DNA of 64,000 nucleotides, from assembly GCA_002118135.1 (NCBI GenBank), contig BDIU01000079.1:186001-250000 (forward strand). The letters are read 5' to 3'. The stretch's first letter is position 1. Each line of letters opens with the position of its first letter. This stretch comes from Trebouxia sp. TZW2008 (taxonomy: Eukaryota > Chlorophyta > Trebouxiophyceae > Trebouxiales > Trebouxiaceae). Both the position numbers and the translations under genes were made by a program. The notes beneath the pieces were generated by a model that was not told the DNA's origin, did no database searches, and was given only the letters and a program-made list of their open reading frames with translations. This document shows, one piece after another, positions 4,093 to 61,487 of the stretch.

Positions 4093-7000
4093 ATGCTAAG
4101 AGCAAGGTTAGCGGGCTGTTCAGCGGATCAACCGGAGGGCGACACCATGACGCTAGCACTAGGACACCAAGTCCATGCCGGCGTAGGCCTGCCAGTTTGC
4201 CAGCGCCCTCGTTTGCAAACTCAGGCCGTGCGCCTGCATCACCGGCATGCCGCTGCAAAGCCGTTGAAGTCTTTCGGCCGACGTGCTGACACTCATTTGT
4301 TGCGCCGCTCTGCATTGACAAAGAAGCTAGAGCACAGCAGGAGCTCAAGATGTCAAGTCAGCAGGCGTCCAGTCGCCGAGGCTGCGTCATCAGCTCCACC
4401 AGCAGAGTTCAAGTGGGGTGCAGACATGAAAAATCTAAGCATATCTGTCGGTCTTGCGACTGTTGTTTGGTTCATCCCACCTCCTTCAGGCGTGACTGGC
4501 CCGGCATGGCACCTGCTGGCTATCTTCTTGGGCACAATTGTGGGGATCATCACCAAGCCCTTGCCTTTGGGTGCTGTGGCAATGCTGGGCCTGGGAGCTA
4601 CAATGCTCACCAAGACTCTGACATTCTCAGCAGCTTTCAGCGCTTTTGCAAGCGAGATCCCGTACGTGCTGCTGCTGCTGTTGCAGTCTTAAGACATACA
4701 GATCACAGCAGCAAGCGTAGGGATGTCTTTTCAGGTGGCTGATTGCGATAGCTTTCTGGCTCTCTGGGGGCTTCATCAAGTCTGGCCTGGGCAATCGCAT
4801 TGCGTATGGCATTGTGTCCCTCTTCGGAAAGACCACCTTGGGCTTGACATACAGTCTTGTGTTTGCTGAGGCCTTGCTGGCGCCTGCTATCCCCTCTGTT
4901 GCTGCTCGTGCAGGCAAGATGTACCAAGCTTGCATCATCAAAAAGGCTTTGTTGCTGCTCATGCAAACCAGCTTCTGCATGTCATCTCACCACAAATGTA
5001 TCTTGCATTATCACATGAGGCTGCTGCACTGCTGATTGCTTACCAGTTTCTTTGTTGCTGCTTGTGCATGTAGGCTGCGGCAATGTATTATATAAGTGCA
5101 TGTCTTCATCATCACAGTAGGCTTCATTGCGGATTGTACGTTGATTGTGTGCCATGAATGCATCTTGCATCATCACATAAGGCTGCAGTGCTGATTACTC
5201 AGTCATTTCTCTGTTGCTGCGCGTGTAGGTAGACTGCAGCGTCTTGCCGTATTAGCGCATCATCACAACAAGTTTCATTGCTGGTCACATGGTCAGTGGG
5301 TTCCATAAGTGCATAATTCCAAGATCACAACAGGCTTCGTTGCACAGTGCTCATGTATCATGGATGCATGTTTGCATCATCACAACAGGCTTACTTTTTT
5401 ATCAAACAACAACTGTGTGCAAAATAAACAATGCTCTGCCTTATCCAGGTGGCATCCTCTTCCCATTGGCTAAAGCCTTGTGCCTAGCTTGTGGTAGCGA
5501 TTTTGCCAAAGGCACTGAGTGCAAGATGAGCGCCTACATGATGAAGTCCTGCTTTCAGACCAGCACCATCTCGTCTGAAACCTGTGCAATTCATCCTGTC
5601 TGACTTTGTGTCCTGTAATGTTCGGGTGGAATATGCTTGCCTCTGCCCAAAGCGCTATGTTTGGCTTGTGGCAGTGACCCCGCCAAGGGCACTGAATGCA
5701 AGATGGGTGCTTACGTCATAAAGAGTCATAAAGACCTGCTGTCAGACCAGCACCATCTATATCTTGACATGTGCAGTGCATTCTATTTGAGTATTTGCTG
5801 TGTCTTGTTCAGGCGGCATCTTCTTCCCTTTGGCCAAAGCCCTGTGCCTAGCTTGTGGCAGTGATCCCGCCAAAGGCACTGAACGCAAAATGGGCGCTTA
5901 TGTGATGAAGACATGTTTCCAGACCAGCACCATTTCGTCTGCCATGTTCATCACAGCCATGGCAGCAAACCCCCTGGCTGTCAATCTGGCATCAGAGGCT
6001 TTGGGACAGCCCATCTCATGGGGCGCTTGGGCTTTGGCTGGAATTGTGCCAGGACTGATCTGCCTTGTCTGCACACCCCTCATCCTGTATTTCCTCTACC
6101 CTCCAGGTAAAAAACTATCAACACTGTAAAACTTGTTCACCCTAGAAAGCTTGTCAGTGCTGTGCCTTCGTCCTACTCACAGGATGAAATCTTGAATGTT
6201 GCTCATCTTGTGGGGCGCTTGGGCTGTGGCTGGAATTGTGCCAGGACTGGTCTGCCTTGTTTACACACCCCTAATCCTGTACTTCCTATACTCTCCAGGT
6301 GACAAACACCATCACTGAAGTCTCATCCTGTGCTTGCTTTATGCTCCAGGCAGAACTTGTCAACATTGCATCTCTTAGAACCTGTCCTGTACTTCCTTCT
6401 ACATTTTAGGTAACATCTGTCAACATCACAGCACAGCAAGCCCATGTTGCACTTCGTAGATGTTGCAAAATGCATTAACACTGTGGGCTCAACCTCTGCA
6501 AGCCTGCCTGCCTTGTGTGCTTTGTCTTTTCATGCTTGGCAGGTGGCAAATATGAGCATGTGCATTTCGGTTTTGCTTATTTCTGCTTGCATTTGAAGGC
6601 CATGCACACACTGCATGACTGCATGTGCAGCAGCATCGTATAGCAGGCTTGACTCTTGTGTAATGTGCTGTATATGCATACGACAACTGGGAGCACAAAC
6701 CCTTCAAAGCAATCACTTGGGTCCACCAAACATGTTGTGGATGCCAGCTGCTCGCTGCTCTGAAGCTCTGTGTCTAGGAAAGTCAGCAAAGCTGAGACCA
6801 TAACAATGCGTGCTGTAGACAGTGACACTGCTAACAAAATCTAGGATCAGACGATGGCATATCTGATTCTGAGTAACAGAGCAAAGGCAATGATATGACA
6901 GCGCATCTGGTTCTGACTAACCATATTGAGATGAAGGACCCGCCGCATGCTCTCAAGAAAGCCAACCAGGAGCTTGGGCCACCTCTCTCCGGATGAGAAA

Positions 7001-8254
7001 CACACAATTTTCTGTTGAGTCTGACTAATTTTGCAGAGATGAAGGACACTCCAGATGCACCCAAGGAAGCCAAGAAGGAACTTGAGAAGCTAGGTCCCCT
7101 TTCCTTGGACGAGAAGATCACAGCTGGTGCATTTGCTGTGACTGTGGGTCTGTGGATCTTTGGAGGCTCCCTTGGCATCAACGCTGTTGCTGCAGCCATT
7201 CTGGGATTGTCCATTTTGCTGATCACCAATGTGGTCAAGTGGAAGGACTGCCTAAGTGAGTATTGACTAGCTGACCGTGCATGAGTTGCTGCAGCTGACC
7301 AGATCTGGAAAGCTGCTTGCATGCAACTCACACTGTCACAGTGGATGCAAGATCAGGAGCAACAGTACCGCTAGAGTTTGCCGTGGTTGTGTTGTCTCAA
7401 GTGTTTTGATGGTTTCTAAGTTTTGGCTGGGCTCTCATCGGTATGCATGAATGTCAAATGTGCCATTCACCTGATTTTGTTATTTTGAACACTGCCATGC
7501 CGCAAGCATGCACCCAAACCTGTTGCTTCTGCTGCTCACATACACTCTGGTCCATGCCTATGGTGATGTAGCACAATTTCTGCCATAATGCAGACTTGTT
7601 TAAGAAGGCATTTACCTTAGCCTATGCATGTGGTCTGCGCAACAGAATGCCGAGTTGGCGGCTGCAATGAATCAGCAGTTCAAGACTGTACATGATGCAC
7701 AAGGAGATCTCCAAACATATGCTATTACTCAAGCCCAGCTGCCTACTGTTTGGCTGAAGCTGTGCTTTTGATGCATTGCAGGTGACAACCAGGCCTGGGA
7801 CACTCTGACATGGTTTGCTGCTCTAATCGCCATGGCCTCATACCTCAACAAGTTTGGGTTCATCAAGTGGTTCTCAGACAATGTGGTGAACTTGGTGGGC
7901 GGTCTAGGTCTCTCCTGGCAGGCGTCGTTTGGTGTTGTCGTGCTGCTGTACTTTTACTCACACTACTTGTTCGCAAGTGGAGCAGCGCACATTGGTGCCA
8001 TGTACACCGCGTTCTTGTCTGTTGCCACAGCGACTGGCACACCAGGCATGCTTGCTGCCATTGCTTTAGGGCAGCTGTCTAATGTCATGGGTTGTCTGTC
8101 CACCTACGGTATTGGGTCTGCTCCACCCTACTTTGGCGCAGGCTATGTGCCTCAGTCTAAGTGGTACCAGTTGGGTTTCATCATGTCCGTATTCTACTTG
8201 ACTGTCTGGCTATTTGCTGGAGGAGCATGGTGGAAGGTCATTGGTCTGTGGTAG
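4093..8254 (+). CDS. DiT1: Chloroplast 2-oxoglutarate/malate translocator (DiT1/SODiT1 class)
   Basis: Exons 4093-4661, 4735-4913, 5813-6106, 7037-7255 and 7782-8254 join in phase to 577 codons, close to the size of plant DiT1. The first ~95 residues are Arg/Ser/Ala-rich and poor in acidic residues, as in a chloroplast transit peptide; an alternative start is the ATG at 4147. The mature part is a chain of hydrophobic segments typical of the DASS/SLC13 (CitMHS) fold, with GGFIKSGLGNR, LVFAEALLAPAIPS, TSTISSAMFITAMAANPL, YSHYLFASGAAHIGAMY and the ending FAGGAWWKVIGLW. The family exchanges 2-oxoglutarate for malate across the inner envelope, feeding GS/GOGAT ammonia assimilation. The second intron (4914-5812) uses a GC donor. 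Introns 2-4 carry partial copies of neighbouring exons (annotated separately). Confidence 0.92.
4914..5448 (+). repeat. Degenerate intronic repeats in DiT1 intron 2
   Basis: Several imperfect units recur with the core GCATCATCACAACAGGCTT, followed by TTGCTG-rich sequence (around 4925, 4990, 5108, 5160, 5260, 5320 and 5370). Spacing varies between roughly 50 and 110 bases. They lie just before the exon-like copies at 5449 and 5625. No coding potential is evident. Confidence 0.55.
5449..5756 (+). repeat. Two partial upstream copies of DiT1 exon 3 (5' part)
   Basis: Copy 1 (5449 to about 5580) reads GGILFPLAKALCLACGSD and continues to CFQTSTISS. Copy 2 (5625-5756) is more degraded but keeps ALCLACGSDPAKGTECKMG. 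The intact exon 3 begins at 5813 with GGIFFPLAKALCLACGSD. Both copies stop matching about halfway through the exon. Only the intact exon joins exons 2 and 4 in frame, so the copies are taken as non-used exon remnants or cryptic alternative exons. Confidence 0.8.
6200..6412 (+). repeat. Downstream partial copies of the 3' end of DiT1 exon 3
   Basis: The end of exon 3 (WGAWALAGIVPGLICL to LYPPG plus donor) recurs at about 6210-6300 as WGAWAVAGIVPGLVCL to LYSPG, followed by GTGAC. Shorter echoes follow: a LYAPG-like string before GCAG at about 6320-6352, and a LYFLL-like string with TAG/GTAAC at about 6386-6412. Each copy carries the exon end plus donor-like bases, not the exon start. Confidence 0.7.
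6928..6995 (+). repeat. Upstream partial copy of DiT1 exon 4 (5' part)
   Basis: Reads EMKDPPHALKKANQELGPP, matching the first residues of intact exon 4 (EMKDTPDAPKEAKKELEKLGP, from 7037), including the preceding TCTGACTAA intron bases. A still more decayed echo lies near 6868-6910. Confidence 0.7.
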
Positions 8255-8863: not shown

Positions 8864-11800
8864 TCAGGCCTGGCCCTTTGCTTCCGAGTCGTTGCCACCC
8901 TCAGCGCCTTGACCCCCTTCCTCAGCAAGATAGCCATCAGGATTGTCTGGAGCATCAGGGTTCTCAATGACCTCACCACCACCCTGCTGCTGTACAACAG
9001 GCTCTGCCACAGGCTCACCAGTAGCGTCACCTGCAGTTTCAAGAATGCCGTCAGGCAGAATTGATGATACAGTGTCATGGCATGTAATTATCTTTATGAA
9101 TGCATGAGCTGTGCGGCAACTGTTGACTTGTAAGTTTCGTATATGCCTGGATGATTTTCTGTGTGTGAAACCACAGCTGCCCCTGTAGAATTGCTAGAGT
9201 GACTACATTTGCTTGTGAAGCAGGCTCAAGCATATCAGCGATTCAAGACAGCTGTAGATTTATCTACAAGCCAATTGAGCACATCAAAAGCTACCTTTAT
9301 GATGCAAATAGATGCAACACAAATTTGGTGCTGTGCCTGAGCTGCCCTCTTGCACCAGCAGTTCACGGACAGGTGTGGACCTGGCATCAGCACGCACGTC
9401 AAAAGCTGGGTAAAATGCCTGTAAGTCGTACGTTGACGAGTGGCACTTTACCTGAACCAGGCTCTTGCTTGACAGGGGCTTGCACTATGCCCTGCCGCTC
9501 CAAATTGCGCCACTTATCCTTCAAGTCCACCTGACTCCTGCTCTTGAACACGTCACCAGCTTCATCCAAAATCTTCTTCCACTTGCCTTTGCCCAGCTGC
9601 AGGCAAAACAACTTTTGAGGGTGCAAATCTCGTCATTCAGGTCATTTTGCGAAAAGAAGCAGAGCAATTGCTGCTCCTGCTGCTGTTGTTGCTCGAATGA
9701 GATGCTGGTCTGATATAACTTTGCCTGCTGCTATATATGGCATCAGGTGAACTGTATGTTGCATGCATTGGAATCTATGCACTGAGCTTCAGCAGCGTGA
9801 GTCCATCAGGGAACAATTTGTGCATGCTGTGACGCCGACATGCCCATGACACCTGAGCAGCACGCAGAGGAAGTCATGGAATATAAAGCCTGTCTGCACA
9901 TTGATGCACAGTGTCAAAAGCGTCATTTGCTGTGACCCGCAAATTGTTGCTTGCAAAAGCCAACACTAGACAGCTCACAGCATATGGCAGCTTTTGCATT
10001 GTGCAACAATCAATAGACAAGGGTTTCAGCAGAAAAGCTAGAACTTCGGCACTTGATAAATATCAAGTCCACCCTGAGGCAATCAGGCGAAAAGCCTGCT
10101 GTTTTTCACAGGCTGTAAACGTGACATGACAATGAACCTGTGTCATTGATATTGATGATAACATCATAGCTTCACACCAAGTATTGTGTTTCAATCGTTG
10201 TGTTTTCAAGAACACAATGTTGTGTTGCAATGCTGAATCCTCACCTGGTTTGTGAGCATGATGAGTGTGTTGGTTTCCTCCTCACTCCAGCGTCCCACTT
10301 TGCGCCTGGGCCCCCCACTTTTGTTTTTCTTTCCTCCTTCAGGGGTGCCATTGATCCCGGCATCAGCTGGAGTGCCGTCTAGGGGTGCGACCATACCAGG
10401 CGCCACTGGCATTTCCATTTTCACCTATACCACACAATCAAACTGGGTCAATCATCAGGGCAAGCACTGCCTAGACAAGCACTGCACAAATACGCAGGGT
10501 ATTGTTGAACCCTGCATCAGATGGGGTGCCATCTAGGGGAGCCAACACACCAGGCGCCACTGGCATTTCCATTTTCACCTGTACCACACAACCCCAAGAA
10601 TGAAGTACAGCAGGAAAACCATGCCGCTTTGTTCCTTTTACACATTTGTAAAGCTGTCTAAAGGAGCAAGTGTGCCAGGTATCACTGACATTTCCATCTT
10701 GACCTGTACAACACATGCCTGCCGTTGAAGGATCCTCGTTCAAGTGGTCATATTACAAGCTTGAGGCAATGAAATCTGAGTCATATTTGACAGACAGGTG
10801 TGTCACTGACGTATCTGTATTCGTCTTTGCCACACAAACTTGACAGTCATGAAGAACGCTGGACAAGTAACCCACACAAGACTGTCATTCAAGTCAAGCA
10901 TGCACAGACGAGCAGGCCAGTAACTGCTCAGATGGGTGCACGTGTGAGAGAAGCTTGCTTTTAGGTGCATGAGAGATATCCAGAGATTGATAATGTCAGC
11001 ACTTGCTACAAATAGTCACAATCTACTTTCTGTGCATGCTGATTTGCTGAACAGTGCATCTTGCTGATTGCATGCTGAACAATGGAAGAGACGAACAAAG
11101 CGGCCAGATGACAATACTGCATGAACAGCTGTGTTTAACAATGAGTGACAAGCCTTTGAAGCAAACAGCAACGGCCACGCCCTGACTAGCTGATACATGT
11201 GACATCATGCCTCTTCGCTACCAGAAGCTGCAAACAGTCCATATGGAAGCAAGGGTGACAATGTCGTCACATGACTCAGTGCAAGCAAGGGGCAGACACT
11301 GCATCTAAGCAGGGCAGCACCATATCAACAGCATGAGCTGTGCTTCAAATCGTATTTGCAACATATGCAGCATTCCACGCGTAGGTGGTGAGCAACGCAT
11401 GCAATGTTAGGGTGAACTACGTGACCAGCGCTGCCTGAATCGAAGCAAAACTTCACTACATCTGACTGTCAAATGCAAAAAGCACGATGTATCGCATGCA
11501 GCTGTAACAACAGCCTGCTTCAGCAATAACATGGCGTTGCAAACTTTCAGGCTTACCCCGTCAGGTGTGGGCTGTGGACTATCCCAGTAGACGGGACGGC
11601 CCCCCTCGCCGCCTACCAAGACCCCTCCAGCCACTTGATCCCCAACAGCTGCCTGCAGCGCCTGTGCATGTCACACTGTTGTCTTACTTGTGCAGTTGCA
11701 TGACATTATGCACTCCACCAATTGCGTGTTGACTGATGGGGCAACCAGCACCTCTGTGAATAAATCTATTTAATGTGGTCCTGTGATTTTAGAAGGCAGC

Positions 11801-14553: not shown

Positions 14554-15777
14554 ATGGGAGGTCGGTTGGCAGTTGGCGTCGTGATCGGTTTCGCTACTGC
14601 TATACTGTGTCTGGGCCTTTACGCCCGGCTACCTCCGAGACTTTGGCAAGCAGTTCCTGCACAGCATCTCAACTTCACCGCCCCACCACCGCGTCACTTG
14701 CGGAACGCGTTGTTTGCACACGTCGAGCAGGAGCACGAAGCAAGTCGAATTTATCACGAGCTTCAAGACGCGGAATACGCTGCTCTAGAACAAGCGCTGG
14801 ACATATCGGCTTGGCAAGAACCTATAGCTGTCCAGTTTGACGTCAGCAACGATCCTACAGCCCAGTTTACGCACCGGCACAGACTCATATGGGACGTATT
14901 TAGTCCCTTCTACAACTGTCCGTCACAGCAACGAGTCGGGACCCCGCCCAGACTGTTTGATGGTGGCAAATGGATCTGTGGAGTGCAGCCGTTGCTGAAG
15001 GTGCCCAACCTGCAGACTGCAACCCGCAGTGCATGCTCCAAATTCAAAATTTGCTCATGCCATGCTCATGTGCTGAGCTGCGCAAGCTGCAAGTGCATTC
15101 TGCATGAGCTGTTGATGATGCGCTTGCAGAAGCCTGGCTGCGTAATCTACTCCTTTGGGTCCAATGGACAGATCACCTTTGAGGAGGGCATGGTCGAGGT
15201 CACAGATCACATGTGTGAGGTGCATGTCTTTGACTTCAGTGCAAGTCAACAACAGGCAGAGGAAGTTGAAAGCATCAGCGGGGTCACATTCCACATGTAT
15301 GGCATTGGAGCAAAGGACGAAACTGTTCAAGGCAGATTTCAATATGAAGATCGCATTGTAACTTCATACGAGCTCAAAACTCTTCCCACAATCATGAAGG
15401 AGTTGGGGCATGAATGGGTACATGTTTTCAAAATGGATGTTGAGGGGGCAGAATATCAAGTCCTGCCCTCAATTGTGACACATTATGCTGAAGCACAACA
15501 GGTCATTCCAATTACACAGGCTCAGATTGAATATCACCATTGGGGCGATCGACCACCCAGGGAAGACATTCTGAACACACTCAGACTTGTTGAGGAGAGC
15601 GGTCTACGGGCATTTCACACAGAGTACAATTACCATGGGGAGGCGTGGAATTTCATTGAGTATGCATATCTACATGTTGACAATGATGGTCATGTTGTCA
15701 GTCCAACAGAGCCAGGGCCATATCATAAGTTGCCAGAAAGCTCAAGGCTTTCTAGACGTAGCATGATTCAGACATAA
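14554..15777 (+). CDS. Membrane-anchored methyltransferase-like protein (METTL24 / Methyltransf_21-like)
   Basis: One open frame of 407 codons. An N-terminal membrane anchor (about residues 4-24, LAVGVVIGFATAILCLGLYA) is followed by a luminal or extracellular domain. The fold shows a SAM-binding-like strand (GCVIYSFGSNGQITFEEGM), a central strand (CEVHVFDFS) and the conserved VFKMDVEGAEYQVLPSI block, where the DVEGAE motif is typical of FkbM/METTL24-type methyltransferases. The tail IEYHHWGDRPP and WNFIEYAYLHV also fits that family. Bases 15001-15129 are a stop-free 129-base block starting GTGCCC and ending CTTGCAG. It encodes a Cys-rich stretch (CSKFKICSCHAHVLSC) that breaks the methyltransferase domain, so it is probably an in-frame intron; its removal leaves 364 residues. 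The substrate is unknown. Confidence 0.75.
   Translation: MGGRLAVGVVIGFATAILCLGLYARLPPRLWQAVPAQHLNFTAPPPRHLRNALFAHVEQEHEASRIYHELQDAEYAALEQALDISAWQEPIAVQFDVSNDPTAQFTHRHRLIWDVFSPFYNCPSQQRVGTPPRLFDGGKWICGVQPLLKVPNLQTATRSACSKFKICSCHAHVLSCASCKCILHELLMMRLQKPGCVIYSFGSNGQITFEEGMVEVTDHMCEVHVFDFSASQQQAEEVESISGVTFHMYGIGAKDETVQGRFQYEDRIVTSYELKTLPTIMKELGHEWVHVFKMDVEGAEYQVLPSIVTHYAEAQQVIPITQAQIEYHHWGDRPPREDILNTLRLVEESGLRAFHTEYNYHGEAWNFIEYAYLHVDNDGHVVSPTEPGPYHKLPESSRLSRRSMIQT
15001..15129 (+). other. Probable in-frame (exitron-like) intron in the METTL24-like gene
   Basis: Begins GT after AAG and ends CAG, is 129 bases long (43 codons) and has no stop. Removing it joins VQPLLK to KPGCVIYSFG, which reads directly into the SAM-binding strand. 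Splicing is inferred from sequence only. Confidence 0.6.
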
Positions 15778-24032: not shown

Positions 24033-24520
24033 TGTTGCGATGCGTCTGTGATCTACCCGAATCGCGGCACTTCTCTGCCAGCAAGCCTGTAAAGACTTAG
24101 ACGCAGGTTCTTGGGAAGAATTAGGTCAACCTTCTGCAGTGCGTGCTGCTCGGCCAAGCGTGTCCAAGCTACTTTCTCTGCTGCCTTTTACGCAATGCGC
24201 ATCGCAGGAAGTATCGACATTGTAAGGAACGCGAGAAACGCTGTCGAATCGAGCAGCGGACATGATCTCGGACGTATCGAAAGTTGAGCAGACACTAGAC
24301 TGTCATTTGTGCCGAGTGAGTCATCGTACTAAACAGTAAGCCATTAGTCATATTACTCAACCTTGCAATGGTGATTGAGGCACACAGACAACCTAGCACA
24401 ATAAGATCACCGGCGCGAGCCACGGATATGATACCCTACTGCTGATGCTAGCAGAGAGCCTTGAGATGCGCTGTGCAAGGCCCACTTCCTAGCTCTCGTT
24501 TGCTTGCTCAAGACGCAAGA
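24033..24520. promoter_or_regulatory. Divergent intergenic region before malonate-CoA ligase
   Basis: About 490 bases separate the proposed minus-strand start at 24032 from the ATG at 24521. No TATA box or repeated motif was recognised. A shared promoter is inferred from the head-to-head arrangement. Confidence 0.3.
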
Positions 24521-27127: not shown

Positions 27128-27183
<56 letters not shown>

Positions 27184-34760: not shown

Positions 34761-35440
34761 TGATGTAGCGTGTGTCAGTGGCAGCGGGGTGAAAGCAGGG
34801 GGGGTCAGCGTGTGTGTCATGCAGCATCCTCAGTAATTATTGGTAATAAGTAATTAGTGATTATAACCATTACTACTTGACAGCTTGACTGCTTTCAAAC
34901 AACTTTCTCTGCATATCTGTTATTACTAACAAAACACAGAATCCACAGAGTAGTGCCTGTGTAACGCCGCAGGGGTGTTACGGTCTATAATCCAGGGCAA
35001 TGACCGGATTGGCACTTATGGGTCGGGCTTTTTACTCACAACTGAGTGTAGGACTGTGAAGGTCGACTCCCTTTCACGGAGTTAGGCCGTGGTTCGATTC
35101 CTAGCCAATCCGAATTGTTAATGTCAAGCTTGCGTTACACTGCTCATTCCTACTCTATTCTATCTATCTTTTCAGTAGATAATAGTAGTCGAAGTGAAGC
35201 CTTAAGTACTAGACTCCCTGTTTTTTAAAAGGAAAATGCTGTGTCAAGCTTGCGTCACATAGGGTCAGCCACATAGACAGCGCACTTGAAGTCATAAAAC
35301 CTATGGTTTGAAATGACAGACTTATGTAATAATATGCACACACCTTGATCCGCATGCTTGATAACAAACCAGGACAAAACCCTATGAAACACTGTTGCAA
35401 ACCCTATGGTCAGTGGTCAGTGAAGCAAATATATATACCA
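34761..35440 (-). repeat. Right inverted arm of the retroelement (with insertion)
   Basis: Reverse complement of the left arm, interrupted by a 162-base insertion (34960-35121) that the left arm lacks. Without it the arm is about 518 bases. Confidence 0.9.
34960..35121 (+). mobile_element. tRNA-like cassette 2 (SINE-like), inside the right arm
   Basis: Starts TGTAAC, ends GTTAA and is absent from the left arm, so it is an insertion. A seven-base acceptor-like stem is perfect (GGATTGG at 35006-35012 with CCAATCC at 35105-35111). The A-box-like TTGGCACTTATGG and the B-box GGTTCGATTCC are present. Internal hairpins (TACTCA/TGAGTGTA, GTGAA/TTTCAC) resemble a tRNA with a long variable arm, but I could not assign a standard cloverleaf or anticodon. 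Confidence 0.6.
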
Positions 35441-37635: not shown

Positions 37636-37639
37636 AGCA

Positions 37640-46921: not shown

Positions 46922-46971
<50 letters not shown>

Positions 46972-49385: not shown

Positions 49386-50207
49386 AGCATCATGTTGGAC
49401 CGATGTAATGAGTAAGCACATGTGCCATATCTACGTCTGACGCTTTGCATTGCATGCAACATTCATCCTGCAAACCACACCATATCTACTGACATTTGTT
49501 GCGCAATATAGCATTGGCTCTGCACTATTTGGCGATGGCTTCAGTTACGCAAGATTGTGTGGGCATGCAAGACGTGGAGCCTGTACAGTATGCGCAATCA
49601 ACATTGTACAATGGCAGCTATGTTGTCCCTGCTAGTCTGTACATGGTAATTGCTTTGGCACTTGGTGCAATTTCTGAGTGATGGAGATAACAGCTGTGCT
49701 GAGGTAGTCATGACATGACGTGACAAATGACGCGCAAGCTTAGCATTGGACGCAAAATTCTGTACAACATCTGGTTACAAGGGGAATGATCCTGTATACA
49801 TGTCTGATTACAAAGGAAGGATAGGGTTTCACAAAACTAATCTCTAGACACTGAGACTGCAGAAATCTGCATGAAGAACGCTCATGTACGATAACACGTC
49901 TCACGGCCAGGGCAGCCCAGCATCATCCTGAAGCTGATGCTGTTAAGGCGTTTAGCCAACAATCTGCCCCTCAACAATCTCCTTCAACAAGAATTCATAC
50001 ATATGTGCCTACTCACGAGCAGCTAGCTCACTAGCGACACAACTACATATGTGCTGCACTTTGCCAACTCCAAGATTTCTGCCTGATTTGTGTGTTGCAC
50101 CTGTCAGTGAGCCAAAGTCTGCAACAAAAAGCAGCACACTGTGGCGCATCCACCGTCACACTTACCACTGTTGCCTCTGATACTTACCTGCAAAAAATTG
50201 TAGGACG
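49386..50207. other. Intergenic stretch without recognised features
   Basis: Only short ORFs (about 60 codons) are present; nothing could be supported. Confidence 0.4.
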
Positions 50208-50766
50208 TCAGTGCAAGAGTAAGCCCCGTTGAGTTGGTGGGTTGTCTCCCCACTGGCACACATAACTGTAGCTATGGCGAGCTGCCCTTGCGTCAGCCTC
50301 TTGAGGCGACAGCAAAGGGTCCTGCCTTTTCAGGCCGGCACTTTCTGCCTCAGCGCCCGGGGACTTTCGCCCGGTGTTTTGAATATTTGCAAAGCTCACT
50401 GCACGTATGCAGGCTTGCCTATGGTTCACCGAAGTGGCCCTTTGCACTGCGCCTACCTTGATGCCTTCAGGCACATCGCCCGTCTTCGTCAAGTTGACCG
50501 AGCATCTTCAACTCCTCAAGGCATGTTGCGACACCTCGACCACCAGATAAGCCCCAGCTGTTACCAAGTCAGGCATTCTGATCAAAACATGATCCCGCAT
50601 TGACCTCAAGCAAGTGCCGCCAGGCTCTGCACACCTCTGCTCCAAAACCGCCCTTGAGAAAGCGCCCTGTCAACACGAACGACAAAACTTTGAAGACCAT
50701 GTCGACAGAAGAGGACCGTTCTGCGGTGCGAGAATAGACAACAAGGTGCCGCCAGTACAGTCGCAT
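50208..50766 (-). CDS. Possible small minus-strand gene, unresolved
   Basis: Two minus-strand open stretches look protein-like. One (50766-50569) contains MVFKVLSFVLTGRFLKGGFG and AWRHLLEVNAGS; the other (50492-50208) contains VPEGIKVGAVQ and LLSPQEADARAARHSY. A frame between them (LVTAGAYLVVEVSQHAL) suggests further coding sequence. I could not fix splice sites or recognise a family. The head-to-head position with the remodeller gene at 50793 is compatible with a real divergent gene. Confidence 0.3.
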
Positions 50767-50792: not shown

Positions 50793-53700
50793 ATGGACGA
50801 CATCAGCATTGATCTGTCAGACGAGGAGTACGTCGCGCCAGACGATCAGTTGACCTTTTCGTTGAACTTGCCGTCCGTCGCCAAGAGCGCGGCTGCAGTC
50901 CAGGGGAACCACAAAGGCGCTGTTGCAGGTCGTAAGTTGCGTCTGCACCCGTGAGTTAGCCCCTCGCTTGTCCTCAAGCTTGCTCACACATGCTTAGGTC
51001 AATCTCGCTGTGACAGGTGAAGAGAGCGCTGCCGACGGCACAACTGCACCACGTCAGACTAGCCGGCCGGCATTCAGCAGATTTGCATATAAGGGAACCA
51101 GCAGAGGAGACTCTGCTCAGGCACGCCTGGTTGTACGCTGCTCATACTGTCAGATGCATGCACAAGCTGACATATGTGCTTGGCTGTACAGCAACCTGCG
51201 AAGAAGCAAGCAATCAATCTTGTCAGCCCTCCATCAAGTGACAAGCCCATTGCACACAAGCGGCGGGCAGCCAATGCAAAGCTCTTTGATGAGAGCGATG
51301 CTGAAGATGACAACTCTGACCTTGACCAGCCAATTGCCAAAAGGTTGCGGACACTTCCTGTTGCATCAGAGCAGGTATCTCAACCTGATTGATGTTCCTT
51401 TTGCAAGGCTTGGGTCTGTCTCCAGCGTCCTGCAAACAGTATCACCAAGTCTCAAACCACTCAATTGCAAAGTTTGTTTATGCATTCAACATCATGAGTT
51501 GCAACTTGCCAGCATGAAGGTCTTGCAATGTCCATACAGGAGGAGGAAGGGGAGTGGCAGGAGGTGCCAGAGTTGCATCACATGCAGCGGCAACGGCGTA
51601 TGTACGTCAAAGCAGACAACACTACAGGTTTGACTTCTGCAGCGGCTGAAGTTGCAAGTAACTTGCATGAGTGGTCAAGCGCACCCAAATGGAACTGTAC
51701 AGAGTCGTGTGCACGTGTGCTACATGCTGCTATTCACATCCTATATCCATGGCATGGCTTCAGTTTGCTGGCATGACCTGCAACACTGTTTCTTAGCTCT
51801 GTGCTCAAGCAACTAGCAAAAACCTGAGCTCCGATTTATGTGAGGCAACGACCAATCAAACGAGCATGTTGAGCATGGATCAAATAGGCATATTATTGAC
51901 AACAAGGGTGCAATGAGCATATTAAAGTTGACTATTCTGTTGAGTATTTATGCCATATTGCATCTGAACTCAAGCAAAGGCCGAATTGACATTGCCTGTG
52001 ATGCATCAGCACACTTTGTCCACAGCTATGGGACAAGCTGCTGCTGCTTCTGCAGAAGTTGGCACAGAGCAGATATGGTAAAGGTCAGCCAATGGCTGGG
52101 GCCGCAGAACATGATCTAAGCAGCAACACACATGTTTCTTTTTATACCAAGTCTTCTCACATGCTTATACCAAGTCTTCACTCACACTTATATCCAGTGT
52201 TCACATTTTTCAAATAGAAAAATCAAGTCTATTGTAGCTTTGATCAAAAGCAATTTCACAAACACTTTCACAGCAACACTTCCTCCAAAGCCCTTCTGTT
52301 GATGATGGCAGGTGATGAGCAGCATGCAGTGCAGCAATTGAGGTTGCCAAGAAGACGATTCGCCAGCAACTGTCATAATGCTTCTTTGGCCCATGCATCC
52401 TTGCACTGTGACTTGAGCAGTATCAATTTACAGACCGCTTTCATTGATGACGGCAGGTGATGAGCAGGACGTAATGCAGCAGTTTGAGGAAGCTGGGGAG
52501 GAGCTGCAAGAGGACCAGATAGATGCCGTCCTGGAGCGCTGTGAGCAGCTTTCACTTAAGCTGCGGCAGGCTTTGCAGTCCCAAGGCAATGACAGGTGCT
52601 GTCTTGCTGCATGAAAAGCGCTGAAGCAGCCTTGTATGTGTTTGTTACAGAATGGCTCGACGCTCATTTCTGCTTTGCATGGATGGCCTGACATCAAGGA
52701 CGCAGTGTGAGACTTGTGCAAGTGCATTGACTGAAATGAGCTTTTGTCTGTCCAAACTTGACATACAGGACAAAAGTTTGCTACTATAGTAGCGCAGTGC
52801 TAAGAAGTATACTGTGTACCCAGGGAGACGGGGCTCTTGCATGCTTGATGCTGTTCACTGCCTGCTAGCAGGTACTCAGCGTCCGACACGCCAGCCTCTG
52901 CCTTGATATCCCATGCTGATCTGGTGGCAGCCTGCGGAGAAGCCGCCAAGTACTTCAAGCCGTACCAGGTCAGTGCAGCAGGGCCAAATCTCTATGCCGC
53001 CTGTTCAAAAATAGATTACAGAGTAGCACAGCTGTGCAACTGCCTTTGAAGCTCGAACCAACAGAGTTTGTCATGGCATGCACGCGTCATGTTGTGGTCT
53101 CTATGAGATTGCTCATGTGTCTACAAGCACAGCAGCACCCAACATTGGATTGTACAGTGTAGAGCCATGCTACCATCCTCTTTGTCACAGCCTACAGCCC
53201 AGCGCATACTCTTGACGGCAGTGTGTACTCACCTGCAATGATTGATGCTATCAGCTATGTAGAGAGACAGAGGATTTTTTTTAACATGCTTTAGCCAGCC
53301 AACAAGGCTGATCACATGTGCCACATGGCAATGACTACATGTCCATGAAATTCAGGCAGTGCTTGACAAAGCATTGCAAACATGTCCAAACTGCATGATG
53401 TGTGCCATCATGCTGAGTGCCATTCTGTGATGGGATGCAGATGGTAGGGGTCAACTTCCTGTTGCTGCTGAAGCGGCAGGGAATCAGAGGCTCCATCCTG
53501 GCAGATGAAATGGGCCTTGGCAAAACCGCCCAGGCCATCTGCTTCCTTGGTAAGCTATGCTGCTCACCAAAAAAGCAGCACCAGCTACTGATTGCTTGTG
53601 TCTATGCCTTTCACAATCTGACTAGATGAAGACTGCAGACTTGTTCAGTTTTGCATCTGCTGTCTTGACAAAGTCTTTCAGGAAAAGGTAGCTCAGCTGG

Positions 53701-56700
53701 TTGATTTGCAGCTGCCTTCTGTTGGCATTCCCTTGGAAAGGGCAACAGCATTCATTGCTACTTTGCGCGCATTTGTATGGGAAGGTCTTACAGCGGGGAC
53801 AGCAGAAAGATTCAGTTGGTAGGCATCTGCTTGTGCTGTGTCCTTCTTGCAGACCAGCAGACGCTCATTGGTCTGCATCTGTGCTTGCATGGGAACAGCA
53901 TTTTATTGCAATGATCTGATCTCTAGCATACTGTCCAGAGATTCGATGTCAAATTGTGGTGGCCAGAATACTGGATTGATTGTTTGATACAAGGGGGTAA
54001 AAAGGGCCATTCATCAGCATGATGTTTCTTACCAGACGGAAACGTCATCAGCCTCTCATTTGACATAGCCAATTCCTGACAAGGTCATTGCGTGCTCTCA
54101 AACTAGGCAGTACCATCATGTCGTCATCAACACAGCAACACAGCCTGGCTGTCAACAGGTGCGCTTAGACATCTAGACCAGGACAGCGGCCCTCATCTAG
54201 TGGTAGCGCCAGCCTCTCTCTTGGAGAACTGGCAGCGTGAGTTCCGGCGTTGGTGCCCTGGCCTTAGCCTGATGACCTACTATGGCAAGGATAGGGCTTC
54301 TCTCAGGCGTCAACTACTGGATGCCAGGCATGTGCATGATCCTTTCGCACATCCTGCTGATTTGTCTTTGATCTATTGACTCATGGCGCTGTGGTCTACA
54401 TTGCGACCCCAGATGTGTGGCAGAGTAATGCATTGGGCTGCACTGACAACAGCCAAGCAAAGCTTAGGTTGGTGACCTACTATAGCAAGGACAGGAGTGC
54501 TCTCAAGCGCTGGCTGTTGGGTGCCAGACATGTGCATCTGCATCTGAACATCAGAATGCAGAGCTGCTGTTTCTGAGCGGTGCATCACTATACTCTCAAC
54601 TTGAAGATTTCACTCTGGAACACTTAAATATCACGTCTGACACGCTGACGTAGCCAGGTTATCTGTTCTACAGCTTACACTGTGTCAATGGATTGCATCG
54701 CCAAACACTTGCATATTGCTTATTGTGAATTTTTAACTGAGCATGATGGATGCTGATCCACTGCTTATTGATGCCACAGGCGCACTGGCACTTCAACAGC
54801 TCTGTCCCCTGAAGTCATCTCCATCCCAGACTCAGACGCCAGCAACTCAGACTCAGACTCAGGCAGTGAGTTTGCCGCCAGCGACTCTGCGTTGTCCCAA
54901 GCTGAGGCAAACCCCCACCAAGACACTGCAGCTCAGTCTCAACCCAATCATCAGAACGAGTCACAATTGCCATTCAACGTCATGCTAACATGCTACACGC
55001 TGTTTGAGAGGGACTCAGCGGAGCAGCAGGCGGACAGGAGCTTTCTGAAGAAGTGGCAGTGGTCGCATCTGCTGCTGGATGAGGCTCATGCAGTCAAGAA
55101 TGCCAGCGCGATGAGAACAAAGCGCCTCACCAGGTGACTTGCAGAGCATTGTATCTGGTTGGACTGTTTGCCTTGTAATCAGTTATACTCACATTCTCCC
55201 TTCCCTTGCAATTGCTTGTGGTCACGAAATTGTACGCAGCTCTCTCTGTTGGCGTCCCAGCTGCATATGATGGGGCTGATCACCTGCATGAGCAATGCAT
55301 AGCACTGCAAGCAATGTGCTGTATATGTCACACACAACATCTTCATCAGGCAGCTTTGGTCAGCTGGCATCGTGTCTGAACTTCACAGGCTGGATCATGC
55401 ATATTGAATTGATGTGATGTGTGTTACAAACCAAAAAGCCATGAGCAAGTCTGCCTGCTATCATGTAGCATGACTGTCATGTCAAGCTGAGCACACGGTC
55501 ATGTGATTTCTGTCTAGAATGATTGTGTGCTGCTGAAGAGTGCACTGCCTGTTTGACATGGCTGTGATGCTATACCAAACTGATGTCATCACAACAAACC
55601 TGTAAGGACACTTTCTGACAGCTTTACAGTGTCATGCTGCACACATGTTTCCATGCATGCTGCAGTGTGGCTCAGCACTGCAAGAGGCGCATCATGCTGA
55701 CAGGCACGCCGCTCCAGAATGACCTGGAGGAGCTGCAGAACCTGCTGCAGTTCCTGCTGCCGGACGTCTTCAGCAAAGACGAGTTTAGCCAATCTGAAGA
55801 TCTCCAGGAGGATGGAGCAGTGGAGAGGCTGACAGAGCGCATGAAGGCTGTGCTGGGCCCCTTTGTGCTGCGGCGCCTCAAATCTGAGGTGGCCAGCCAG
55901 CTCACTGCCAAGCAGCACCATGAGGAACTGGTCAATATGACGCCTGAGCAAGCGGCGCTGTACCAGAAGGCAGTGTCACAGCTCAGGGCAGAAGTCACCG
56001 CCAATAGTAAAGGTACAGTGCTTGACCCAATCTGCAGGGTCTCAGCAAGGCCACACCTAGTATGTTTGTAGTACATGGGCAAAAGGATGCCTGAGCAAGC
56101 GGCGCTGTGCCACAAGGCGGCTTCTCGGCTCAGGGCAGAAGTCACGGCCAATACCAAAGGTGTGAAGTGGTGCCCTTATCTGCGCATTTGGTGATGCATT
56201 TGCTTGAAATGAGTGGAGCTGACTTGTGAGCAGGAGGCGCTGTACCAAGAGTGGTGATACAGGTCAGGGCAGGTGTCACTGCCAACACCACTGAAGGTGG
56301 CATAGCTACCCTTGTGTGCAAAGATGCCATCTTTGGCTTGTGACAATGCATTCTGCTCTTAGGTCTTGTGATCGGAAGTCAGGTTGTCCATGACAATGCC
56401 TGGCAATGCATCAATGACAGGCACACAAAGCGCAGCTTGCAAGCCTTTGTACGCTATGTTGCTTGCTGAGCATTAGGCGCTGCGTTATTTGCACACAATG
56501 CTGCGTCATTTAGGCGCAGGTGTGCATGACCAGAAGTGCAGCTGAGGACTTGCAGCAAGGTCTCCAGCATGAATCCATCTCAGCATTGAGCCCTTCTGGA
56601 TGCACGCGTGTGTGTGGAGTTTTCACAGGCATGGATGCAGTTGACGTTCAGAGCGTGTATGTGCACCGGCAAGAGGCAGAAGAAGACAGGGGCTGATGGA

Positions 56701-59700
56701 CAGGCATTTGTGAAGCAGTTGGGTAAACAGACAATGTCAATAGTGAGTCATTACCAACGCATGTGCGTGCTGCAGGCAAGAAGCAGAAGAGGGCAGGAGC
56801 AGATGGGCAGGCCTTTGTGAAGCAGTTGGGCAGGCAGCGCATGGCCCACCTCTTCACTCACTTAGTCTTTGCCAGCATCGAGAGCCTGCATGTCTGCAGG
56901 CAAGAAGCAGAAGAAGACAGGGGCAGATGGGCAGGCCATGGTGAAGCAGATGGTTGAACAGCACGTGGCCTACCTCTTCACACACCAAGGCTTTGCTGAC
57001 AGTCAGAGCCTGTATGTCTGCAGGCAAGAAGCACAAGACGACAGATGGGCAGGCCTTTGTGAAGCAGTTGGGTAAACAGCTGATCTCAAGATTGAGCCCT
57101 TACTGTCACGTGTGTCTTCCACCACATGTCTTTGCTGACAATCAGAGCGTGTATGTGTGCAGGCAAGAAGCAGAAGAAGACAGGGGCAGATGGGCAGGCC
57201 TTTGTGAAGCAATTGGGTAAACAGCGCGTGGCCCACCTCTTCACACACCTGCGCAAGATCGCTCAGCACCCTCTGCTCACTCGCAGCCTCTTCACAGATG
57301 CTCAGGTGGAGCGCCTTGTCACCATTGCACACAACAGGTATACACCTGCATTTGCGGCATTTTTGAAGGTGCAAAACTTTGCCAAGTTGACAGGAGTCTT
57401 GCAATGCAATCACGCAATGGATGCAAAACAAGATCATGCCTCATGCGTTGGTCCAGGACATGCATCATTCATCATTCAGCAGGAATTGCAGGCTTTGGGT
57501 GCTTTCTTCATGCATTGTTGGCAAAGAATCTGTCATACAAAGCAAAGTCTGTTGTTGTCCATATCCATTATGATCTGGCATCTGGCCACAATGACTGCCA
57601 GCGCAGACTTGATTGATGACAAAGCTGGATTACATGGCAATGGCTATTTGCCTTGGCAAGCACATCCTCATGCAACACCCATGACCTGAAGGCCTGCCAG
57701 AGCGTGACTCCTTTCTGTACAGTCTCCTATGCTGCCAATCACTACTGAATCAGTGACACAGCTTGAAGTTTTCATGTTAAATGTGACATGCTTAGAGGTC
57801 CACCCAATCACATTCTAGGCAAATGTTTGGGGCTTGCTGGCAGGAAAAGAGCGCTCTTCTCAGTAATGCTTGAGCTACAGTGATGCAAATGACGCTGTGC
57901 TGATCTCGAGTTTCCACGTCGCAGGCAGACCTTTGGGCGTGGTTGTGGCAAAAAGTGCAGCTTAAAGGAGCCGTCACGCTACAGCAAACATAGTCTGCAC
58001 AACTTTGCCCTGCAACATGACCCTAGCAGCGTGCATATCGTGCTGACCATTGTGATGCTGTGCTCATGAGCTGTGTCCACATTGCAGGCAGATCTTTGGG
58101 GGCATTTGCATTAAAGAGCGCATTTCTGAGGAGCTGTCTGGCTGCACGTGTTTGCCCTGCAACATGACCCTAGCAGTGTGCATCACTGATGACTTTGCTG
58201 ACCAATGCAATGCTTTTCTCATGTGCTGTGTCCACATTGCAGGCAGATCTTTGGAGGCGGCTGCGGCAAAGAGAGCATCTCAGAGGAGTTGTCAGGCCAT
58301 AGCGACCACAGGCTGCATCACTAGCATGTCAGCATATTGTAAGCAGAGTGTATGCCTGACACACACAGTGACCAATGGGATGCTGTGCTGATCCTGCCTT
58401 TGTACATTGCAGGCAGGTCTTTGGGGGTGGTTGTGGCAAAGAACGGATCTCCGACGAGCTGTCTGGCTACAGTGACCACAGGCTGCACGACTTCGCCCTT
58501 CAGCACGGCCTGAGCAAGTTTGTGCTGAGCGACGAGGCTGTGATGTCATCCGGCAAATGTCAACTGCTGGTGGAGCTGCTTGAGGACCTGCAGGTGATCA
58601 TGGCTTGCCTCATCTTATTCTGTTCCTGCTTGTGTCAGACCTGCATTTGCATCCTTATGCTGCCATGTGCTGTTGTCGTGGCAATTGCTTTGCCCTTCAG
58701 CGCGGCCTCAGCAAGTCTGAACCGAGCGACGAGGCTGTGATGTCATCTGGCAAGTACCAACTGCTGGTAAAGCTGCTTGAGGACCTGCAGGTAGAACAGC
58801 TTGCTTCCTGCCTCATGTTTTGTCATAAAAATCCTGGCAAGATCCTGCAGCATTGGTACGCTACAATTTGCACCAGCAGGTGCTAGATTGAGGCATGACA
58901 GCTCAACATACCTTGTATATTGAATGCATGAAATCCATGTGTGCCAGACCATCCCCTGTTTACTAGTCAGGTCAAGGACTACAGAAGGGATTTTCTGGAG
59001 AAATGGGGTGATTGACTTTGGTGTCATGTGTCTCACGTGCAGTGCAGATGTCAGTCCATCTCAATGCTGCCTCAGGTTGCAGACTGAACAGTGTTTGGAT
59101 CACATGCCAAAGCGGCTGCAACACGGCAACAGTAAGTCAGCTTTGGTCACAAAGACTCCGCTTGCTGCTGTAGGATGAGGGCATCAGGCCGTTCATCTTC
59201 AGCAGAGGGCCGGGCCGTCACATCAAGATCATGGGGCCACAAACAAGTTGACAGTTGTTGGAAGCATGCAATTATATCAATCGCGAGGGCTTTGCATGCT
59301 GCTGCAGATAAACGGCAGCAGGGGATCAATACGTCGCCAGAGGACAGTGATGCGAGACATGTCTGGCAATCCTCACAATGCTTGTGCTTGCTGCTGCAAA
59401 AGAAGAGCAGCAGGCCACTGATACTCAGTCAGTGGACGTCAGTGCTGGACACCTGGGCTGAGAATCGCTTTTTGCAGGCAACTTGGCTCAAGGGCGACGA
59501 TACGATTGCTTGCTGCTACAGAAGATGACAGGCAGGCTGTGCAAGTTTGATTCATGCACTGTGGTATTGAAAACTTTTGGAAGTCACAAGGACTGAGCTT
59601 GCCGTTGCAGAAGAAGCGCAGCAGGCCATTGATCTTCAGCCAATGGACAACAGTGCTGGACCTCCTGAGCTTGAGACTAATGCTGTGATTGCTTGTTGCT

Positions 59701-61487
59701 GCAGAAGAAGGGCAGCAGGCCGCTGATCTTCAGCCAATGGACGTCAGTGCTGGACATCTTGGGCTGGCTGCTGGAGATCATGGGCCTCACCTATGTGCGC
59801 TTGGATGGCAGCACCCTGGTGGCTGACCGCCTCGCCACTGTAGACCTGTGCGCTCCACTGCGCTACACTGCTTTGTACCTGCACTGTGCTGCATGGCCAT
59901 AGCACTTCACACACTTTGGTGCTCTATCTTGGGACTTGGCAGTCATCAACATGCGGGCTTTGGCTGTACAGCTTTGTCATGGCATTCACAGTACCCTTGC
60001 GGCAGAACTGCTTTGCTACTGTAGACCTGTGAGCACTGCAGTTGTGCTCTGCACTGCAATTTTGGCACTGTGCAAGCCTCTATGCTCTGTCATGGTACTC
60101 TGCTGGCTGGCGTTGACGCGTAAGCACCACTGCTTTGCACTTGCACCGCAACGCTATGACTATGTACGCATGGCTCTGTGCTCATTCGCAAAACAATCTT
60201 GGGCAATCATGACTGGAAATGGACGACCATGCATGACTCTCCTCCCTCACGGCACTCTGCTGCGCACTCGAGACCTATGGGCTTCGCTGCACTGCGTTGC
60301 TTTCATCATGCATGCCTCTGTTCCCTGTCACGGCGCTCTGCTGGGCAGCCAGCAACCTGAGACACTTGATTGCTTCTGTACGTACCTAGTTGGGCCTGCT
60401 GAGCCTGCCTAGCCCACGCCTATAATGAATGATCAAAATGAACCTGTGAGCTTTGCGCACTGCAATGCTACAAACATGCATCAGTACGGGCGCTATTGCA
60501 GAACTATGCTAGGCCAAGATCAACTTGTTAGCTTTGTTGCACTGCAGTGCTGTCATTGTGCATATGCCTGTGCACTGCAACTGCACATTGTCAGGCCTTA
60601 CAGTGCTGTGGATAGACTTCAACATTGAATAGCACAAATTTTCAGCTGCAGAGATCTTGAGCAACTGCTGAAATCTCATGTGCTGACTGTTGAGAATGCA
60701 TATAGGTTCAACGACCCATCCAAGGGTGTCTTTGCCTTCCTGCTGTCCACTAGGGCAGGGGGTCAAGGGCTCAACCTGACGGGGGCAGATACCGTCATCC
60801 TGCACGATGTGGACTTCAACCCACAGATAGACCGCCAAGCAGAGGATCGCTGTCATCGACTAGGCCAAACCAAGCCAGTGCATGTGTACCGCCTGGTGAG
60901 CTGAAACCCTATTGTCAGCTTAAACCGACCCAAGCCTGCGTGTGAGTAGGCCCGATGCATCGGCATTCTGTGTTTGGGCATCAATTAAGAATTAAGCAAC
61001 ATGATGCTGCCTAAAGCCCTTGATGCAATGGAATGTTGCATCGCATGGTAAGGTTTTTGAGCATCATTTGACACGCTGTGCTCAGCGTTTGACCATCCTG
61101 AGGGTACTATCACATGCATTGGCATGTGGAGCATGAGCTGGTTCATCTCATGCAAAACTCACATCCACAGGATGTAGCCTGAACCTTACAAATGGCTTGT
61201 CAATTGCGGTTTGACTGTTCAACGTCTTGAACGTAAGCCGCTTGGATGTTGTGTAGGTCACACAGTCCACGGTAGATGAGGGCATACATGCCCTGGCAAA
61301 ACGCAAACTGAAGTTGGATGCGGCAGTCCTTGAGGGTATAACAGCAGGCAGCCAGAGTAAGCAAAACACTGCAGCAACAGATGCTGTGCAGATGGGGCAA
61401 CTGCTGCAATCCTTGATTGCTGGCTCTGGGCCAACCGAGGTTCTGCAGGAAAATGAACATGCAAACAGTGTGATCGCCATTGAATGA
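50793..61487 (+). CDS. SMARCAD1: SNF2-family chromatin remodeller, SMARCAD1/Fun30/ETL1 class (plant CHR19-like)
   Basis: About 17 exons. The N-terminus is acidic ([18 protein letters not shown]) with a patch [18 protein letters not shown], then a helical segment ([18 protein letters not shown]) like that of plant CHR19. The ATPase has motif [17 protein letters not shown] (53455-53550), [18 protein letters not shown] (about 54200), the DEAH box [20 protein letters not shown] (55070-55130), [20 protein letters not shown] (from about 55690) and [12 protein letters not shown]. The helicase-C lobe has [19 protein letters not shown] with [13 protein letters not shown] (about 59704-59840), [20 protein letters not shown] and [22 protein letters not shown] (60700-60895). 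The last exon begins at about 61258 ([19 protein letters not shown]) and stops at 61487. The family remodels nucleosomes in heterochromatin maintenance and DNA-end resection. Introns hold the densest set of exon-edge copies in the window. Confidence 0.9.
52285..52345 (+). repeat. Upstream partial copy of a remodeller exon ([10 protein letters not shown])
   Basis: GGCAGGTGATGAGCAGCATG and the following CAGTGCAGCAATTGAGG repeat the intron end and exon start at 52445-52490 (GGCAGGTGATGAGCAGGACG). Confidence 0.7.
54466..54545 (+). repeat. Downstream partial copy of the [19 protein letters not shown] exon end
   Basis: Reads [20 protein letters not shown] followed by HVHLH; the intact exon ends [20 protein letters not shown] at about 54330, followed by HVHD. 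Only the 3' part of the exon is copied. Confidence 0.8.
54780..54965 (+). other. Acidic Ser/Asp insertion in the remodeller ATPase core with a SUMO-interaction-like motif
   Basis: In the reading frame that leads into [14 protein letters not shown], this exon first encodes [20 protein letters not shown] and then [22 protein letters not shown] followed by acidic and Ser residues fits the V/I-x-V/I plus acidic pattern of SUMO-interacting motifs. Most SNF2 proteins have a short linker here. Confidence 0.5.
56085..56295 (+). repeat. Two downstream partial copies of the [17 protein letters not shown] exon end
   Basis: The intact exon ends [22 protein letters not shown] at about 56010. Copies: [20 protein letters not shown] with NTK before GTGTG (about 56088-56160), and a decayed one (about 56226-56295; DNA GAGGCGCTGTACCAAGAG). 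Confidence 0.8.
56665..57075 (+). repeat. Four upstream partial copies of the [21 protein letters not shown] exon
   Basis: Copies near 56665-56735, 56774-56850, 56899-56975 and 57020-57075, each starting GCAAGAAGCA or a close variant. Three directly follow CTGCAG or TGCAG acceptors. The intact exon starts near 57161 and alone continues [20 protein letters not shown]. Intron segments between copies are also related (TTTGCTGACA, CAGAGC, GTATGT). Confidence 0.9.
57920..58330 (+). repeat. Three upstream partial copies of the [18 protein letters not shown] exon
   Basis: Copies near 57923-58010, 58087-58165 and 58241-58325, starting CAGGCAGA-CTTTGGG and followed by GG-TGTGGCAAA-like bases in varied decay. 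The intact exon starts near 58411 and continues to [18 protein letters not shown]. Confidence 0.85.
58695..58790 (+). repeat. Downstream partial copy of the same exon's 3' end
   Basis: Encodes [16 protein letters not shown] followed by a donor-like GTAGAA, matching [22 protein letters not shown] at about 58592. The exon start is not copied. Confidence 0.85.
59395..59675 (+). repeat. Two upstream partial copies of the [17 protein letters not shown] exon
   Basis: Copies near 59397-59465 ([19 protein letters not shown]) and 59608-59675 ([19 protein letters not shown]). The intact exon starts near 59703 and continues to [16 protein letters not shown]. Confidence 0.85.
59990..60035 (+). repeat. 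Downstream copy of an exon end and donor in the remodeller
   Basis: AGTACCCTTGCGGCAGAACT then GCTACTGTAGACCTGTG repeats the end of the intact exon at 59810-59850 (AGCACCCTGGTGGCTGACCG then GCCACTGTAGACCTGTG). Confidence 0.6.
60360..60412 (+). repeat. Dispersed ~50-base repeat shared with 611-665
   Basis: TACCTAGTTGGGCCTGCTGA followed by GCCTGCCTAG matches, in reverse orientation, 611-665 near the left edge (TACCTAGTTAGGCCTGCTGA on the minus strand), with further similarity just upstream (GACAC..TTGATTGC). Confidence 0.6.

Follow-up and report, generated by a model that had tools for sequence, protein, structure and literature searches.

The introns of several genes in this stretch of DNA carry partial copies of a neighbouring exon, and the first-pass annotation described a rule in them: copies upstream of an intact exon hold its 5′ part, and copies downstream its 3′ part. 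What process leaves only these edges, and always on the same side? Here, we measure the polarity in the window, that is, the whole 64,000-nucleotide stretch (positions 186001-250000 of contig C77), and in a larger sample of the same genome, and then weigh the mechanisms that could produce it.

The genome comprises 68.5 Mb in 527 contigs, and the sequence studied amounts to 259,934 bases, made up of the window, adjoining sequence from its own contig and portions of three further contigs; the GC content is 0.495-0.502 across the four blocks. Size and GC content agree with the values given in the accessible parts of two papers on Trebouxia, namely 69.1 Mb and 49.68% (PMC12712428) and 63.08-73.88 Mb and 49.64-51.05% (PMC11523091). 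Among named organisms, proteins from the window match Trebouxia best, and we regard the source as a relative of this genus; the SMARCAD1-like protein is 76% identical to its counterpart in Trebouxia sp. C0005 with 61% of the query covered, and AAE13 is 64% identical to a protein of C0005. The window also holds a gene for an FkbM-type methyltransferase (14554-15688; PF13383, PF05050) with relatives in other Trebouxia, its product being 50% identical to those of Trebouxia sp. C0010 and C0009.

Gene models were produced by a small home-made hidden Markov gene finder, self-trained on this sequence, which returned CAG/GTRAG-like donors and TGCAG/G-like acceptors, and predicted median lengths of 167 bases for exons and 490 for introns. 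It fuses adjacent genes and mistakes some intact copies for exons. Models in the window were corrected by hand using homologous proteins, or open frames and splice scores, and some exon ends in this set are estimates with a possible error of a few bases; Pfam matches support a transporter (PF00939), a Myb protein, an AMP-binding enzyme and an SNF2 helicase.

Polarity of exon-edge copies

Within the window, 13 exons of five genes (DiT1, TRF-like, AAE13, Ala/Pro-rich and SMARCAD1-like) were tested, chosen because a repeat scan had flagged them. They have 27 partial copies in introns, and all 27 follow the rule: 20 lie upstream and carry the 5′ edge, and seven lie downstream and carry the 3′ edge. 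Reversed-sequence controls for the same exons gave 0/26. In DiT1 (plus strand; PF00939), an intact exon at 5813-6106, with acceptor CAG, donor GTA and an open frame, is the source of three copies: the 5′ part with its acceptor at 5437-5577 (116/141 identical), the 5′ part again at 5619-5756 (104/128) and, downstream, the 3′ part with its donor at 6201-6307 (94/107). A second DiT1 exon, 7037-7255, is preceded by a copy of its 5′ part at 6928-6976 (39/49). The TRF-like gene, which encodes a Myb domain (PF00249), lies on the minus strand, and here exon 10245-10424 has its 5′ part copied at 10505-10590 (76/86), transcriptionally upstream, so that the rule tracks transcription on both strands, as had been claimed. 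In the Ala/Pro-rich gene (plus strand), exon 41288-41470 is followed downstream by one copy of its 3′ part and donor, at 41565-41614 (43/50).

The SMARCAD1-like gene lies on the plus strand. Upstream copies of 5′ parts are present at 52300-52343 for exon 52457-52595 (38/44 identical), at 56657-56730, 56767-56861, 56890-56986 and 57012-57080 for exon 57163-57337 (89-94% each), at 57921-58028, 58079-58150 and 58234-58317 for exon 58413-58593 (74-82%) and at 59388-59460 and 59606-59671 for exon 59705-59847 (88% each). Downstream copies of 3′ parts follow exon 54158-54331, which is backed by protein P0064 (54463-54537; 58/75), exon 55666-56012 (56076-56161, 72/86, and 56227-56285, 48/58 and 8 nt short of the edge) and exon 58413-58593 (58688-58792; 92/105). 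An RNase MRP RNA gene (RF00030, 104.9 bits) occupies 50206-50452 on the opposite, minus strand, upstream of the first SMARCAD1-like match at 50811.

In AAE13 (plus strand), exon 26491-26700 is preceded by three copies of its 5′ part, at 25993-26156 (126/157 identical), 26172-26229 (a short one, 46/58) and 26314-26465 (128/152), and the 3′ part of exon 27268-27371 recurs downstream at 27531-27596 (59/66, 6 nt short of the edge). A regular array precedes exon 30527-30652, its three units, each with the acceptor and 5′ part, being placed at 30054-30142 (82/89), 30202-30292 (86/91) and 30365-30455 (83/91); unit starts are 150, 163 and 150 bp apart, and the array is contiguous at offset 150. Both intact exons are recognised in P0184, a 552-aa AAE13 protein of a near-identical strain: 26491-26700 is 100% identical to residues 200-269 and 30527-30652 is 97.7% identical to residues 393-436. 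Eight stretches of this protein match the window at 97-100%, the remaining matches extend into introns with lower scores, and identity over the imperfect AAE13 query is 83%. Its source contigs are at most 1900 nt long, whereas its exons span 24473-31640 here, about 7.2 kb, so the contig presumably represents spliced sequence. The stretches copied in AAE13 introns are present once in P0184, and at least one AAE13 message of the near-identical strain would therefore lack the copies.

Other repeats in the window include a CTG run of 33.7 units at 27083-27183, an AGC run of 15.7 units at 46922-46968, within a predicted exon in which it codes for an alanine run, and two inverted repeat arms at 31765-32283 and 34760-35437, about 2.5 kb apart and 77-92% identical in three pieces, possibly a fold-back element.

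The same polarity is found beyond the selected exons. At a threshold of 45 bits, the 259,934 bases contain 129 local direct repeat pairs, and 64 of these link an exon to an intron: 30 lie upstream with the 5′ edge, 27 downstream with the 3′ edge, four include both edges, three come from an exon middle and none has the wrong edge, so that the predicted edges account for 57/64. Two of the three ‘middle’ pairs stop 6 and 8 nt from the exon edge, and the third is the one true exception, a 133 bp piece of exon interior at −20613 to −20481, left of the window, which ends 67 nt short of the 3′ edge. Among the four ‘both’ pairs, one is a gene-finder error (26322-26429, exposed as such by P0184, which places the AAE13 exon at 26491-26700), one is an 80-bp whole-exon copy and two involve predicted exons of 62 and 27 bp; at most one of the four (the 80-bp copy) is convincing as a whole exon, so the copies do not have the form of whole-exon tandem duplicates such as mutually exclusive exons, which would hold the full exon with its two splice sites. 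A second scan aligned all 442 exon and flanking-intron pairs from the 260 kb. With matches scoring at least 50, it returned 51, as compared with two when the intron was reversed and none when it was taken from elsewhere, and 41 of the 51 have the predicted edge, none the wrong edge, eight an exon middle and two both edges. The eight ‘middle’ matches consist of three of low complexity, two gene-model artefacts in the AAE13 array, two whose starts lie within the exon, 17 and 28 nt from its edge, and the exception at −20613 to −20481. Intronic exon-edge copies with a fixed polarity are real and general in this sample.

Assembly is a conceivable source of such patterns, with repeats collapsed or mis-joined; tandem repeats are hard to assemble, and the assembly has 527 contigs. 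Against this, independent changes separate the copies from the exon (74-95% identity) and from each other, and pair density is alike on four contigs (0.45-0.60 pairs per kb). In our view an artefact is excluded for the diverged copies, and as an overall explanation its probability is negligible.

Probable origin by tandem duplication

We consider it probable that the copies are remnants of short tandem duplications, which hit genes often and regardless of splice sites, and that their polarity stems from geometry together with selection on the mRNA. In the proposed model, duplications strike blind to splice sites. A unit lying across an acceptor would give rise to the order intron part, exon 5′ part, intron part and intact exon; splicing would use the second acceptor, keeping the mRNA, and the upstream leftover would be an acceptor plus a 5′ part. 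A unit across a donor would be the mirror case, with a 3′ part and a donor left downstream. Exon-internal units would survive only in frame, whole-exon units would be rare and intron-only units free. The leftovers would subsequently decay, more quickly in the intron half than in the exon-derived one, and arrays may expand further. The polarity would arise because each unit spans one splice junction and the mRNA must stay intact, with no edge-specific copying required, and wrong edges and exon middles would be absent because junction-crossing tandem units cannot yield them. The initial argument that ordinary tandem duplication cannot give this polarity is correct for whole-exon units and does not apply to units with one end in an exon and the other in an intron. 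The molecular cause would be slippage or unequal exchange.

Several features point to such an origin. Local repeats within 1 kb and of at least 50 bits are direct in 115 cases and inverted in four, and the distance between copy and source is 94-258 bp in 40 of 50 anchored exon-intron pairs. Copies of one exon tend to share end points: the three AAE13 array copies all end at exon base 30605, the pair derived from exon 59705-59847 stops at 59766 and 59765, exon 26491-26700 has two of its three copies ending at 26641 and 26640, and the four copies of exon 57163-57337 end at 57249/57248 and 57224/57225. In many pairs, intron sequence past the junction is also homologous, with a mean z of 3.5 (n=47) and z >3 in 20/47. 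The mRNA filter is apparent in the periods, which are divisible by three in 8/8 exon-internal pairs, as compared with 10/39 intron-only and 21/64 exon-intron pairs. It may also be reflected in the intron part of exon-intron units (n=40), where the 10% quantile is 59 bases and the 25% quantile 66, rather than the 18 and 42 expected, a scarcity of short intron parts that looks as if enough intron must stay for splicing. In simulations, 21% of random tandem units span a single junction and take in 25 or more exon bases, and 2.9% hold a whole exon. Local junction duplication and selection sparing the mRNA, both among the causes listed in the first-pass annotation, are jointly the best explanation of the copies.

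Template switching, which that annotation had also offered, fares differently if taken as random nearby insertion. Simulated random spaced insertions have the predicted edge in 49.5%, an exon middle in 33% and the wrong edge in 12%, as compared with 3/64 middles and 0/64 wrong edges observed, and these frequencies exclude templated insertion at random sites. They also weigh on a related proposal, that an exon edge and a few intron bases are copied about 55-150 bp away into the adjacent intron with no contiguous intermediate, as far as such spaced duplication is blind to junctions; contiguous arrays, common end points and the flank homology seen in the other half of the pairs would also be left unexplained. 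What speaks for it is the state of the flanks. The intron flank lacks clear homology (z <2.5) in 25 of 49 anchored pairs in which the exon-derived half is recognisable, and in most of these the similarity ends within 25 nt past the junction. Compared with shifted windows of the same intron, the unrecognised flanks have a mean z of −0.1 (23 pairs), and compared with the reversed flank they score better (p 0.006). Simulated neutral decay at the divergence of the exon-derived half leaves the flank visible, and the loss of the intron-derived half exceeds this prediction.

Contiguity gives a mixed picture: it is present in arrays such as that of AAE13 and in pairs with homologous flanks. The aligned length reaches at least 0.8 of the period in 25% of the eight pairs with at least 92% identity (that is, in just two of them), in 21% of 38 and 39% of 41 pairs in the bands below, and in 69% of the 35 pairs under 76%, the last band being weighted by multi-unit arrays with long alignments. 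Many fairly young pairs have thus already lost contiguity. The contiguous share rises rather than falls with age, which argues against a simple ageing series, and the figures make a tandem start slightly less likely, and a spaced duplication slightly more likely, than they would otherwise be. Unit spacing is unequal in several arrays, and the exon part of the outermost AAE13 copy matches both sister copies at 99-100% identity, with an outer flank that is unrelated. Gap sequences between copy and exon offer a further point for the spaced alternative, as four of four searched genome-wide match only themselves, with no sign of gap duplication; 3/49 gaps match elsewhere in the 260 kb. The uniqueness of the four also rules out a mobile-element or introner origin for them. 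On balance, spaced duplication as the general origin is unlikely, and as a second process it is a possible cause of the lost flanks, the chief rival there to the exchange discussed below. We infer a contiguous tandem start for all copies, including those whose flanks are no longer homologous.

Persistence and decay of the copies

If tandem duplication is the origin, the survival of the exon-derived half would call for an additional process. In comparisons between intronic copies, whose two halves are both expected to be neutral, this half is the more similar one in 17/19, with gaps counted against the flank only, and both exceptions come from the array at exon 58413-58593. Differences along the exon part are not clustered (Fisher-combined dispersion p 0.40 for pairs with z <2.5 and 0.05 for the others), which rules out recent patchy gene conversion and leaves only exchange over the whole length as likely. 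The cause of the persistence that we favour, unproven as it is, is homologous exchange with the exon that extends over the entire repeat. The fuller idea, in which the copies are refreshed by exchange with the living exon (or are kept by function) and form a slowly renewed echo of the exon edge while the rest of the intron drifts, has a fairly low chance of being right.

Alternatively, the copies could owe their retention to a function, whether as decoys for splice sites, as exon edges in alternative use or as enhancers of splicing, with the flank left to drift. This would account for an exon-derived half that outlives its flank, and AG or GT is intact in 36 of 47 copies. The 11/47 that have lost the dinucleotide, one of which reads GC, are by our estimate close to the loss expected from neutral change at about 10% per site, and 38 of 43 indels in the copies shift the frame. 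Codon positions are more equivocal. Changes confined to the exon in nine arrays fall on the three positions as 10/3/25, typical of a gene under purifying selection, and those confined to the copies as 52/35/78, a third-position lean that owes much to DiT1 and weakens when DiT1 is removed. Hypermutable third positions were considered as the cause and rejected, as at these positions changes from A/T in the exon to G/C in the copy (0.214) exceed those from G/C to A/T (0.140), which is not the AT drift expected of decay. Codon constraint on the copies is possible, with a third-position excess that exists, shrinks without DiT1 and is read against an uncertain order of copy origin.

Individual copies show the same lean. 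The DiT1 upstream copies (5437-5756) differ from their exon mainly at third positions (3/2/12 in the near copy and 6/1/8 in the far one), and of the nine arrays this is the one that hints most strongly at a coding past; the copy at B36181 has nine synonymous changes and one other. At C96:51972-52042 and 52126-52196 (L026:1972-2042 and 2126-2196), an exon edge is present twice with four differences in 71 bases, all synonymous as read by eye off the sequence; the second copy has its own acceptor-like and donor-like bases, and the edge resembles what we take to be a DEAD-box helicase motif. The suggestion that copies serve as decoys or new exons accordingly finds little support in the frameshifts, the lost dinucleotides and P0184, one transcript-like protein that lacks the copies, with the third-position lean as the one contrary hint. 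Weak function is a possible contributor to the persistence of the exon half; as the general reason for the copies it is very improbable, and their decay looks mostly neutral.

Significance and comparison with known systems

Of the 236 predicted exons that measure 60 bp or more, 48, about one in five, have a recognisable relic (49 exons if one of 27 bp is counted), and detected local repeats cover 10.4% of predicted intron bases. If the pattern holds across Trebouxia, tandem duplication over splice junctions would be one way in which introns grow and a steady supply of second splice sites. It would also be a hazard for gene prediction, because gene finders read intact copies as exons, as happened in AAE13. 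The polarity itself can serve as a simple test, applied across the whole of any intron-rich genome, for tandem duplications in its past.

In the open-licence literature searched, we found no description of the edge polarity or of its density in Trebouxia. The main texts of two Trebouxia papers do not contain the word ‘tandem’ (PMC12712428, PMC11523091), and introns are named once, inside a reference, in the first and not at all in the second. The underlying event and the type of match are both known: tandem duplication across an intron-exon boundary has been documented (PMC4974935), and exon-intron matches have been catalogued (PMC12343006), as the available parts of these papers make clear. 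The Exonize catalogue of inter-boundary, partial and intronic exon matches contains similar objects, that is, exon parts that match introns of their own gene; it classifies and counts them, and edge polarity is not mentioned in the sections available (PMC12343006). Introners, as described in the accessible text of PMC9860276, resemble the present case in being short sequences within many introns of one genome. They are dispersed copies of an element, whereas the four gaps tested here each occur once in the genome.

Further parallels come from intron gain. A tandem duplication beside splice signals that preserves the protein is likewise the basis of the AGGT model (Rogers 1989 and Hellsten 2011, as recounted in the accessible part of PMC4974935), in which the duplicated exon segment contains AGGT. 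By our reasoning, this model places both unit ends in exons and makes the period equal to the intron length. The copies described here do not fit it, because the introns that hold them, at 302-3807 bases, are longer than the periods of 94-483 in the 49 anchored pairs with known intron length. Another parallel is a tandem genomic duplication spanning intron-exon structure in a potato RdRp gene, which, to judge from the available portion of the report, likewise includes an intron end, the 3′ splice site and exon sequence, the splice signals travelling with the unit (PMC4974935). In potato, the outcome was a new intron and inserted exon sequence, whereas here the mRNA is apparently unchanged and the copy rests inside an old intron; and in this alga the event recurs, at the 48 exons noted above.
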